Source of the DNA: Kiloniellales bacterium
GTDB lineage: Bacteria > Pseudomonadota > Alphaproteobacteria > Kiloniellales > JAKSBE01
Direction of reading: 5' to 3'
Length of the DNA stretch: 37,181 nucleotides
Assembly: GCA_028282935.1 (NCBI GenBank)
Contig: JANQGU010000365.1
Coordinates: 1 to 37,181, forward strand
This document shows positions 5,788 through 37,181 of this stretch, piece after piece. The notes below the pieces were generated by a model. The model was not told the origin of the DNA. It was given only the letters and a program-made list of their open reading frames with translations, and ran no database searches. The stretch's first letter is position 1; each line of letters starts with the position of its first letter. The position numbers were made by a program, and so were the translations under genes.

Positions 5788-6774
5788 TCAGGGCACCAGC
5801 CCCTGGCCCTGCAGCCAGGCGTGGCTGTCCTCGATCAGGGTGCGCAGCGGCACGTTCTCGTAGCCCAGTTCCTCCTTTGCCCGGGTCGAGACCACGCGGG
5901 CGTCGAGGCTGACCATCTCGACGCCTTCGGGGGTGATCTCCGGCTCGTAGCCCAGGACCGCGGCCAGCATCACGTTGATCCGCGCGACCGAGCGGAAGGC
6001 GAAGGCGGGGACGCTGCGGCTCGGCACCTTGCAGCCGGAAACCTCGCCGATGATCCGGAAGACCTTGAGCAGCGTCGCGTGCTCGCCGCCCAGCAGGTAG
6101 TTCAGGCCGCTGCGGCCGCGCTCGGCGGCGGCGATCTGGGCCCGGGCGATCGCCGCGCCGTGGCAGAAGCAGCCGGCGCCGGGCGCCGCCGCCGGGATCC
6201 AGCGGCTGCAGAGGTCGATCACGATCCGCGCCCAGCTGTGCCGGTCGTAGCGGCCCATGATGTGGCAGGGGTTCAGGATCACCGTGTCGAGGCCGCGCGC
6301 GCCGGCAGCGCGCACCGCCTCCTCGGCCAGGAACTTGGTGCGGTTGTAGTTGATCCAGGAGCCGCCGCCGAGCTGCGGCAGGTCCTCGTGCAGCTCGCCC
6401 TGCTCCAGGCCGTAGGTGTTCCAGGTCGAGGTGTGGAGGAAGCGCCGCGCCTTGGCCGCCAGCGCCGCCTCCAGGACGTTCTCCGTGCCCTCGACGTTGA
6501 TCCGGGTCTGGCGCCGGTCGTTGCGCGCCCAGACCGAGGTGTCCGCCGCGACGTGGAAGACCGCGTCGACGCCTTGGGGCAAGGCCCGCTTCAGCGACGG
6601 CGGGTCGAGCAGGTCGCCCTCGACCGGCTCGACCGGATAGGCCCGCAGCGGGCCGAGATCCGAGGTCGGCCGATGCAGCGCGACCACCGACCAGCCCGCG
6701 GCGGTCAGCTGCTCGACCAGGTTCAATCCCAGGAACCCGGTCGCGCCGGTGACGAAAGCGGTTTTATCGGCCAT
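5788..6774 (-). CDS. NAD-dependent epimerase/dehydratase (extended SDR)
   Basis: MADKTAFVTGATGFLGLNLVEQLTAAGWSVVALHRPTSDLG...GVDAVFHVAADTSVWARNDRRQTRINVEGTENVLEAALAAKARRFLHTSTWNTYG: TGxxGFLG nucleotide-binding motif and SDR features. ATG at 6774. Confidence 0.9.
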   Translation of the reverse strand: MADKTAFVTGATGFLGLNLVEQLTAAGWSVVALHRPTSDLGPLRAYPVEPVEGDLLDPPSLKRALPQGVDAVFHVAADTSVWARNDRRQTRINVEGTENVLEAALAAKARRFLHTSTWNTYGLEQGELHEDLPQLGGGSWINYNRTKFLAEEAVRAAGARGLDTVILNPCHIMGRYDRHSWARIVIDLCSRWIPAAAPGAGCFCHGAAIARAQIAAAERGRSGLNYLLGGEHATLLKVFRIIGEVSGCKVPSRSVPAFAFRSVARINVMLAAVLGYEPEITPEGVEMVSLDARVVSTRAKEELGYENVPLRTLIEDSHAWLQGQGLVP

Positions 6775-32273: not shown

Positions 32274-32385
32274 AGAGTCACCCCCACCCCAGCCCTCCCC
32301 CATCAAGGGGGAGGGAGCAGGATCGGGACCGCCGCCCAATCAAGCCCTCCCCCTTGATGGGGGAGGGTTGGGAGGGGGTGACTCT
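32274..32385. repeat. 112-bp MITE/BIME-like inverted repeat element
   Basis: Left arm AGAGTCACCCCCACCCCAGCCCTCCCCCATCAAGGGGGAGGG nearly matches the reverse complement of the right arm, AGAGTCACCCCCTCCCAACCCTCCCCCATCAAGGGGGAGGG. Each arm also contains its own 9-bp hairpin. Confidence 0.85.
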
Positions 32386-32405
32386 CCGAATTGCACAGGT
32401 GAGTC

Positions 32406-33314: not shown

Positions 33315-34226
33315 ATGCCGTTGACCCGTACGCTGAAGCTGACGCGTCCCTTGCTGCACGGCGACGATGTCAGGCAGGTCCAGGAACGCCTCTTGGAGCT
33401 GGGCTACCATCAGGTCGGCCGCGCCGACGGGATCTTCGGCGCCGATACCGACAGGGGGTTGCGTCTGTTCCAGCGCGACCGCCGGCTCGGGGTCGACGGA
33501 ATCGTCGGCGAGAACACCTGGGCCGCGCTCTTCGAGGCCCCTGACCGGCAAGCGCCGAGCGGGACGCCCGGCGCCTGGATCGAGCTGCTGCCGCCGCTGA
33601 CCGTGAACCACGGCATCTTCGGCAGCGTCGAGTGGCGCCTGGCGGAGGACGGCATCCGAATCGCGGATGCCGGTCCCGAGGTCACCGGCGGCCCGCCGCT
33701 GACGGTGCGGCGGGTCTGGGAGGACTTCGGCGTCTCGATCTCGCGCTGGTGCGGCGCGTTCGACGTCCCGGTGGAACTGATCCTGGCGACGATCTGCACG
33801 GAGACCGGGGGCAAACCCGAGGCGCTGCGCACCGAGCCGGGCTACGTCAGCGACGAGGCGACGCCCGACCGCGTCTCGCCGGGGATCATGCAGACCCTGA
33901 TCTCGACCGCGCGCGAGGCCCTGGACGACCGGAACATCGACCGGGACTGGCTGCTGGTCGCCGACAACTCGATCCAGGCCGGGACCGCCTACATCAGCCA
34001 GCAGCGGCGCAAGACCGACCTCGACCCGCCCAAGGTCGCCTGCGCCTACAACGCCGGCAGCGTGATCCGCAACGACGGCCCCGGCAACCGCTGGAAGATG
34101 CGCCAGTTCCCGATCGGGACGAGCCATCACGCCGACCGCTTCGTCGCCTGGTTCAACGACGCCTTCCGGTACTTCGAAACCCTGGATACCCCGCCGGGCA
34201 ACGGCTTCTGGCAGGCCCTGCGCTAA
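33315..34226 (+). CDS. Peptidoglycan-binding (PG_binding_1) plus lytic transglycosylase-like protein
   Basis: LLHGDDVRQVQERLLELGYHQVGRADGIFGADTDRGLRLFQRDRRLGVDGIVGENTWAAL (PG-binding repeat); C-terminal LATICTETGGKPEALRTEPG...VSPGIMQTLISTAREAL...AGTAYISQQRRKTDLDPPKVACAYNAGS (SLT-like E and AYN motifs). Confidence 0.87.
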   Translation: MPLTRTLKLTRPLLHGDDVRQVQERLLELGYHQVGRADGIFGADTDRGLRLFQRDRRLGVDGIVGENTWAALFEAPDRQAPSGTPGAWIELLPPLTVNHGIFGSVEWRLAEDGIRIADAGPEVTGGPPLTVRRVWEDFGVSISRWCGAFDVPVELILATICTETGGKPEALRTEPGYVSDEATPDRVSPGIMQTLISTAREALDDRNIDRDWLLVADNSIQAGTAYISQQRRKTDLDPPKVACAYNAGSVIRNDGPGNRWKMRQFPIGTSHHADRFVAWFNDAFRYFETLDTPPGNGFWQALR

Positions 34227-34411
34227 TACCAAGGCGCGTTGATACCGACTCATTTGATGGCGCGCGGCGGCCCGCGGGGCCGAGCGACCGACGGAGTCCG
34301 GCCATCGCCGCCTTGCGATCGGCGACGTCATCCATTAACCTCAATGTTCCTTTTTTGTTCCCGATGACAGGACCGTGACGGTCTTCTACATTTGGGGGTC
34401 TGGGGCTAGCG

Positions 34412-34504: not shown

Positions 34505-36596
34505 ATGGACCGAGCGGCCAGCCTGGAGGAGCGAAGGGACAGCGGGACCACGGCCCTTGTGGATAACGCGAGGAGCGCTGTGGATGAGTCCCTTCAACCT
34601 TCCCCGGGCGACTCGGCCGCCGCCGCGGAAAGCCAGGGCGAGAGCCTTCGGGGCGCGGGCCTTCTGGGCGAGGAGATTCTCGGTAACGGCCAGATCCGGG
34701 ACGTCTTCCAGAACGGGCGCGGTATCACGGTCCGGATCGATCGCGACCGCGATACCCTGCTGACCGAGTTCGGCAAGGCCACCCTCACCGACCGCTATCT
34801 CATGCCCGGCGAGAGCTTCCAGGACCTCTTCGCCCGGGTCGCGGCCCATTTCGCCGACGACTCGGCCCATGCCCAGCGGATCTACGACTACATCTCGCGG
34901 CTCTGGTTCATGCCGGCGACCCCGGTCCTGTCCAACGGCGGCACCGGCCGCGGCCTACCGATCTCCTGCTTTCTCAACGAGTCCCAGGACAGCCTGGACG
35001 GCATCGTCGGCCTGTGGAACGAAAACGTCTGGCTGGCGGCGCGCGGCGGCGGCATCGGCAGCTACTGGGGCAACCTGCGCTGGATCGGCGTAGATCCGGG
35101 CGGAGGGCAGGCCGCGCTGGGTCAGGAGGCGGCAGGCGGCCTCGACCATCGGCGGCCGGGTCGGCCACAACGGCAAGACCTCGGGCGTGGTGCCCTTCAT
35201 CCGGGTCATGGATTCCCTGACCCTGGCCATCAGCCAAGGCTCGCTGCGCCGCGGCTCGGCCGCCGTCTACCTGCCGGTCAGCCATCCTGAGATCGAGGAG
35301 TTCATCGAGCTGCGCCGGCCGACCGGCGGCGACCCCAACCGCAAGGCGCTGAACCTGCACCACGGCGTGGTCATCCCGGATGCCTTCATGCGCGCGGTCG
35401 AGAAGGACGAGGACTGGGCCCTGACCAGCCCCAAGGACCAGACGGTGGTCCGGACGGTCAAGGCCCGGGCGCTGTGGATCCGCATCCTGACGGCGCGGAT
35501 CGAGACCGGCGAGCCCTACCTGATCTACGTCGACCACGTGAATCGGGCGATCCCCGAGCACCACAAGCTGGCCGGCCTGTCGGTCAAGATGTCCAACCTC
35601 TGCAGCGAGATCACCCTGCCGACGGGCATCGATCACCTGGGCAAGGACCGGACGGCGGTCTGCTGCCTCTCCTCCCTGAACCTGGAGACCTATTTCGACT
35701 GGCAGGACGACCCGCGCTTCGTCGAGGACGTGCTGCGCTTCCTGGACAACGTCCTGGAGGACTTCATCGAGCGCGCGCCGGACTCCATGGCCCGGGCGCG
35801 CTATTCGGCCATGCGGGAGCGTTCGGTCGGCCTGGGAGTCATGGGCTTCCACTCCTTCCTGCAGCAGAACGGCATCCCCATCGAGGGCGTCATGGCCAAG
35901 GTCTGGAACCGGCGCATATTCCAGCAGATCCGCGAGGCCGCCGACGCCGCCTCGGCGAAGCTGGCCGAGGAGCGCGGCCCCTGCGAGGATGCCAAGGAAC
36001 TGGGCATCGCCGAGCGCTTCTCCAACAAGATGGCCATCGCGCCGACGGCCTCGATCTCGATCATCTGCGGCGGCGCCTCGCCGGGGATCGAGCCCATCGC
36101 CGCCAACAGCTACACCCACAAGACGCTGTCCGGCTCCTTCAACGTGCGCAACAAGTACCTGGCCGAGCTGCTGGCGTCGAAGGGCCGCAACGACGAGGAG
36201 GTCTGGACCTCGATCACCCTGCACGAGGGCTCGGTCCAGCAGCTGGACTTTCTCAGCGACGAGGAAAAGGACGTCTTCAAGACCGCCTTCGAGATCGACC
36301 AGCGCTGGCTGATCGAGCATGCGGCCGACCGGGCGCCGCACATCTGCCAGGCCCAGTCGCTGAACGTCTTTCTGCCGGCCGACGTGCACAAGCGCGACCT
36401 GCACCAGATCCACTTCCAGGCCTGGAAGAAGGGCGTGAAGAGCCTCTACTACTGCCGCTCCAAGTCGATCCAGCGCGCCGAATCGGGCCTGGGCGCGCCG
36501 GCGCCCAAGGCCGTGCCCCTGCTGGGCAAGGTCAACGGCCGGGAGCAGCCGCAGGCCGGCAGCACCGACTACGAGGAATGCCTGGCCTGTCAGTGA
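34505..36596 (+). CDS. nrdA: Ribonucleoside-diphosphate reductase alpha subunit, disrupted as sequenced by a 64-nt out-of-frame insertion (about 35084-35147)
   Basis: N-terminal part in the frame of 34505 (VRIDRDRDTLLTEFGKATLTDRYLMPGESFQDLFARVAAHFADD...MPATPVLSNGGTGRGLPISCFLNESQDSLDGIVGLWNENVWLAARGGGIGSYWGNLRWIG). Remainder in another frame (IGGRVGHNGKTSGVVPFIRVMDSLTLAISQGSLRRGSAAVYLPVSHPEIEEF...YEECLACQ). Span minus 64 nt is 2028 nt, or 676 codons including stop. Confidence 0.93.
35084..35154. other. 64-nt insertion in nrdA with 7-bp direct repeat ATCGGCG at both ends
   Basis: ATCGGCG at 35084-35090 and at 35148-35154. Antisense translation across the segment: RPPMVEAACRLLTQRGLPSARIYADP. 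Confidence 0.8.
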
Positions 36597-36638: not shown

Positions 36639-37181
36639 ATGTCCCTGCTCGAACACAACCCCGTCTACAAGCCCTTCAAGTATCCCTGGGCCTATGAGGC
36701 CTGGCTGACCCAGCAGCGCATCCACTGGCTGCCGGAAGAGGTGCCCCTGGCGGACGACGTCAAGGATTGGCAGCGCAACCTCAGCGCCGCCGAGCGCAAC
36801 CTGCTGACCCAGATCTTCCGCTTCTTCACGCAGTCGGACGTCGAGGTCAACAACTGCTACATGAAGCACTACGCCCGGGTCTTCGGGCCGACCGAGATCC
36901 AGATGATGCTGGCCGCCTTCTCCAACATGGAGACGGTGCACATCGCGGCCTACTCCCACCTGCTGGACACCATCGGCATGCCGGAGTCGGAGTACTCGGC
37001 CTTCCTCCACTACAAGGAGATGAAGGACAAGTACGACTACATGCAGGGCTTCGGCACCGAGACCAAGGAGGACATCGCGCTGACCCTCGCGGTCTTCGGC
37101 GCCTTCACCGAGGGCCTGCAGCTCTTCGCCTCCTTCGCGATCCTGCTGAACTTCCCGCGCTTCAACAAGATGAAGGGCATG
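36639..37181 (+). CDS. nrdB: Ribonucleoside-diphosphate reductase beta subunit, partial: 3' end lies outside the window
   Basis: MSLLEHNPVYKPFKYPWAYEAWLTQQRIHWLPEEVPLADDVKDWQRNLSAAERNLLTQIFRFFTQSDVEVNNCYMKHYARVFGPTEIQMMLAAFSNMETVHIAAYSHLLDTIGMPE...; runs open to the window edge. Confidence 0.97.
   Translation, partial: MSLLEHNPVYKPFKYPWAYEAWLTQQRIHWLPEEVPLADDVKDWQRNLSAAERNLLTQIFRFFTQSDVEVNNCYMKHYARVFGPTEIQMMLAAFSNMETVHIAAYSHLLDTIGMPESEYSAFLHYKEMKDKYDYMQGFGTETKEDIALTLAVFGAFTEGLQLFASFAILLNFPRFNKMKGM

Follow-up and report, generated by a model that had tools for sequence, protein, structure and literature searches.

In the nrdA gene of an uncultured, Kiloniellales-related bacterium, about 11 nt appear, on comparison with the rest of the genome and with relatives, to have been replaced by a 75-nt antisense copy of a reductase gene, which shifts the reading frame. 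The best explanation, which we hold to be probable, is that the reductase antisense was copied into nrdA through microhomology, that this happened recently, and that the resulting truncation of NrdA has left the cell dependent on class II ribonucleotide reductases (RNRs).

The split nrdA and its donor gene

The window that we analysed is the whole of contig C335 (37,181 nt), part of a draft genome of 460 contigs that is 81% complete (G000); G001 and G002 denote two other genomes of the same genus, referred to below as the congeners. nrdA spans 34505-36596 on the forward strand, and its frame shifts across a segment that adds a net 64 nt. The N-terminal part, taken from the ORF list, occupies the native frame at 34505-35089 and matches PF00317 and the start of PF02867. 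The C-terminal part, comprising the barrel domain (PF02867), lies in the shifted frame and runs from 35148 to the native stop at 36596. NCBIfam identified each half as ribonucleoside-diphosphate reductase alpha (PRK09102), the first matching profile positions 9-134 and the second 133-604 (814 bits). The native frame that begins at 34505 stays open through the foreign tract and meets its first stop at 35290. Downstream on the same strand, the 5' part of nrdB (36639-37181; NCBIfam ribonucleotide-diphosphate reductase beta, 334 bits) is truncated by the contig end. In G001 (contig C114, loci L206 and L207), nrdA and nrdB are separated by about 0.8 kb of extra sequence with a possible ORF, the middle of which resembles, by eye only, the ribosomal L7/L12 C-terminal domain.

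A search of the same genome at the DNA level returned a single strong second match, on the opposite strand of contig C153 (6650-6736). The tract at 35082-35156 of the window is identical to this locus at 75/75 nt (L029, approximately 6662-6736), and its counterpart there forms the 3' terminus of a 286-aa ORF, which is intact and contains an FAD-binding (PF00970) and an NAD-binding (PF00175) domain. The nearest NCBIfam model for this ORF was NAD(P)H-flavin reductase, with a score below the cut-off; the gene adjoins an iron-sulphur-biosynthesis gene (PF01521). The donor locus is cleanly assembled and the donor gene has been kept intact. A sequence-only reading of the window had recognised the C terminus of a reductase on the opposite strand, had offered as its first option an insertion templated by a distant gene through microhomology and had proposed searching the insert against the rest of the genome; the FAD/NAD(P)-binding reductase ORF and the 75/75 match on C153 bear out the recognition and the first option. 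Insertion of a member of a repeat family was rejected, as there is only one strong donor match.

Sequences that do recur elsewhere in the assembly were mostly intergenic palindromic elements. One such element at 32274-32390 of the window (CTCCCTCCCCCTTGA...) recurs dozens of times, in either orientation, in this genome as well as in the two congeners, and copies of a short intergenic repeat at 34223-34281 (TAATACCAAGG...CATTTGATGGCGCGCGG) occur on numerous contigs from the genus. Another intergenic palindromic repeat of about 119 nt (TAGAGCATGATCGTG...) was found in L121 (227-346), L131 (4549-4667) and L161 (18820-18939), with copies that are 97-99% identical; a related repeat stands at the end of contig C153.

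Each congener has its own copy of the reductase (79-80% protein identity), and in each nrdA is intact (in G002 the two loci are on separate contigs, C51 and C19), which argues that copying ran from the reductase into nrdA. The tract equals its donor here, while the donor gene differs by about 15% from its counterparts in the congeners, which points to a recent event.

Using nrdA as the query, we searched 61 genomes, 48 of which gave a match, mostly to nrdA itself. Where matches covered both sides of the site, the alignment either stopped at query position 584-586 and restarted at about 642-644 or crossed the site with a gap; the relatives' alignments thus join query position 586 to 644, with the segment missing. 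Uninterrupted-site spacing was seen at all loci that could be measured from both flanks (84/84, some genomes being included twice and 78 of the sequences being distinct), and the segment is accordingly missing from 78 or more distinct relatives, the two congeners among them. Relatives carrying the segment in frame, which the sequence-only reading had named as evidence against an insertion, were looked for and are absent; the segment as a conserved in-frame part of NrdA was rejected on this ground. The two flanks of the site are syntenic with both congeners. When the whole window was aligned with these two genomes and inspected by eye, the +64 was the sole recognised coding gap that breaks the frame against both, and the remaining gaps that are not a multiple of three lay near gene ends or between genes.

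The near-invariance of the target makes both edges of the tract readable. At the site, the 78 distinct relatives have Ser-Ile-Gly-Glu, with Ser in all but one and Glu in all, and they carry TCGATCGGCGA at the position of the left microhomology. Here, Trp (TGG) stands for Ser and Gly (GGC) for Glu, the latter encoded by GAG or GAA in the relatives. Conservation is 97% or higher in 289 NrdA columns, and this gene departs from them nowhere else; the two deviations sit at the two edges of the tract, and both carry donor bases. Outside these two codons, nrdA is free of decay. The event is therefore best described as a replacement: a tract of the form G-GATCGGCG-(57 nt)-ATCGGCG-GC would have taken the place of C-GATCGGCG-AG, the ancestral 11-nt sequence as reconstructed from relatives, with about 11 nt of nrdA lost and 75 gained. 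The left ATCGGCG copy (35084-35090) lies within the left microhomology, GATCGGCG at 35083-35090, as its common core, and the right copy (35148-35154) is itself the right microhomology, followed by donor GC at 35155-35156 where relatives have AG. Donor bases thus reach 1 and 2 nt past the microhomologies.

These edges qualify what had been read from the sequence alone. Two ATCGGCG repeats 64 nt apart had been reported at the frame switch, as had a 2,028-nt ORF obtained by removing 64 nt, and both observations are accurate (2,092 - 64 = 2,028 nt). The proposed 64-nt insertion stands as a net gain and not as a size, the foreign tract being 75 nt in place of about 11; likewise, the idea of templated filler survives and that of a plain insertion does not, with donor bases extending past the ATCGGCG repeats. 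The 'repaired' ORF would read LRWIGGRVG, where the relatives have LRSIGE(R/K/Q)VG. Because both deviant flanking codons carry donor bases, cutting out the 64 nt would not be expected to give back the native NrdA, and the obvious repair, deletion of one repeat, would yield a protein that never existed.

Microhomology, mechanism and rival explanations

The two microhomologies, of 8 nt on the left and 7 nt on the right, are in register with the replaced site. A tract with such an in-register 8-nt and 7-nt pair occurred twice in 1.32 million scanned positions, compared with 0.07 occurrences expected if the two were independent; the scanned set includes donor and insert, and the two occurrences are taken to be these two, as the script counts and gives no positions. 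This excess argues that microhomology guided the event. Compared with random genomic 50-mers, the duplexes of the donor ends with the target have energies in the strong tail, although the donor stretches used were not all 50 nt long.

We propose that a short single-stranded piece of the donor, or a strand copied from it, annealed at nrdA, probably at a replication fork or in a repair gap. It would have paired by way of GATCGGCG at one end and of ATCGGCG at the opposite end before being sealed in, with the donor strand either physically incorporated, as in short-patch double illegitimate recombination (SPDIR), or favoured when a heteroduplex was corrected towards the donor. A polymerase that switches template at a microhomology retains the recipient base outside the homology on the entry side. 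Because the outer edge bases are those of the donor on both sides, donor-strand incorporation or heteroduplex correction fits better than simple copy-choice by a polymerase. Within the target site the two microhomologies overlap each other, a point against the pairing of a single donor strand at both ends. The ComEC-type family PF03772 is present, so DNA uptake would be possible; it is not required, since the donor is intragenomic.

A different origin of the same junctions would be a library or assembly chimera, in which template switching or a ligation joined the pieces in vitro and the nrdA of the cell is intact. We consider this unlikely, and what speaks for it is specific. Contig C30 ends in an inverted fold-back inside nrdJ (L133, 7895-7999), a structure typical of in-vitro chimeras; read in reverse complement, its final 64 nt are identical to C216 230-293. 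It has the look of a fold-back read or of a chimera made in vitro, and suggests that in-vitro chimeras did enter the assembly. The bin also seems to mix contigs from more than one related organism, and a gene that is otherwise without decay is what an artefact, too, would predict. However, a k-mer graph cannot generate junctions from homologies of 7-8 nt, which are too short, and the junctions must therefore be in the reads; a final assembly k of 99 is suggested by one pair of contig ends that overlaps by exactly 99 nt. A chimera would moreover need to exit and re-enter at the same site; the flanks on both sides are syntenic with the two congeners, and the donor locus assembled cleanly. It would also have to place donor bases beyond the homology at either end, a pattern that is not produced by simple polymerase switching. 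Finally, when 676 kb of the assembly were scanned for other short coding copies that are nearly identical, only the nrdA/C153 pair emerged, and no second coding patch of this kind. The survey set aside, by eye, overlaps between contig ends, the C30 fold-back and one overlap of 436 bp between contigs (L180/L188), and it is blind to pairs whose partner lies outside the sample. A literature search on in-vitro chimeras returned nothing. On balance, a library or assembly artefact is disfavoured as the cause.

Much harder to sustain is a break in nrdA that lost 11 nt and was closed by end joining with a stray 75-bp fragment serving as non-homologous filler. This would account for donor bases lying, without homology, exactly at the join, but the in-register agreement with the lost segment, 8 nt at one end and 7 nt at the other, is far above chance. 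Ku (PF02735) was found neither in this genome (81% complete) nor in G001 or G002, although the Bacillus subtilis control was positive, and Ku-dependent end joining was rejected on account of its absence.

Translational bypass or frameshifting, in which ribosomes pass the segment and make full-length NrdA, had been the third option of the sequence-only reading; we rejected it and give it almost no credence, as the ATC GGC codons on both edges (35084 and 35148) are left by microhomology as a by-product, no stop directly follows the take-off site (the next codons are GTA GAT CCG, and the first stop is at 35290), the frame overlap contains no slippery heptamer, the structure of 35084-35160 is no better than that of shuffled sequence (z = -0.08), the segment is missing in all relatives, and even a perfect product would have Trp and Gly at the invariant Ser and Glu.

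Ribonucleotide reductases in the genome

If nrdA was interrupted by microhomology-guided copying, the upstream NrdA product should be inactive, because the frame stops (at 35290) early in the catalytic barrel domain. A second RNR, one of three implications that the sequence-only reading had drawn from a real insertion, is present in the form of class II NrdJ genes of two NCBIfam types, a PRK07562-like gene on C108 and a TIGR02504 gene on C216, and by their presence the loss of the class I enzyme would be buffered. For nrdA itself, the outcome would be unremarkable: its function would be lost while backup enzymes remain.

Additional RNR matches lie on C209 and, on C30, at the contig end. Of one NrdJ kind, L210 (C209) and L211 (C108) are 79.6% identical; of the other, L133 (C30) and L212 (C216) are 91% identical over their overlap. 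Each congener has three RNR large subunits, with one NrdJ of each kind, and the duplicates here are either paralogues or a sign that the bin mixes related organisms. The TIGR02504-type NrdJ on C216 (L001, 3-3300) has an apparent intein after TNP that starts with CVTGDTW and ends with VHNC, as read from the translation and a gap in the profile match only.

Relation to known systems

The event is of a known but rare mutational kind, and this instance of it is new: a frame-breaking indel in an uncultured bacterium has been followed back, with base resolution, to the very ectopic sequence that served as its template. Indels of unexplained origin in metagenomic genes can thus be traced to a donor.

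The closest likeness is to SPDIR, reportedly described by Harms et al. (PNAS, 2016) from experiments in Acinetobacter baylyi. Its hallmarks are said to be a short ectopic or foreign donor segment, retention of the donor, and a single-stranded donor intermediate that acts independently of RecA. Here, an ectopic intragenomic segment likewise replaces a shorter recipient stretch, with microhomology at both sides. The donor is short and retained (75/75 with the intact C153 reductase gene), GATCGGCG and ATCGGCG pair in register on the two sides, and the replacement is heterologous, with about 11 nt exchanged for 75 and the Ser and Glu codons changed by donor bases. SPDIR has been cited as a process whose demands on sequence identity are relaxed (PMC7192050). 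The present case differs in being natural and inferred from a genome, that of an uncultured Kiloniellales-related bacterium, rather than from A. baylyi experiments, and in having donor bases 1 and 2 nt beyond the microhomologies. We can entertain only tentatively the fuller account, in which natural SPDIR with donor-strand incorporation knocked out the class I RNR of an environmental alphaproteobacterial lineage that now has B12-dependent class II enzymes only.

Polymerase template switching, or templated insertion during fork or break repair, resembles the event in that a distant sequence is copied with microhomology at both junctions; under plain copy-choice, however, the base at the side of entry remains that of the recipient, whereas both outer edges are those of the donor here. 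In the translational bypass of bacteriophage T4 gene 60, a stop beside the take-off site goes together with a stem loop at take-off and a signal from the nascent peptide (PMC5009743). This system shares with the nrdA site an insert of similar size (50 nt in T4) between matched codons (PMC5009743). By contrast, nrdA has no take-off stop, special structure or conservation of the segment, and its joined product would contain two non-native residues.
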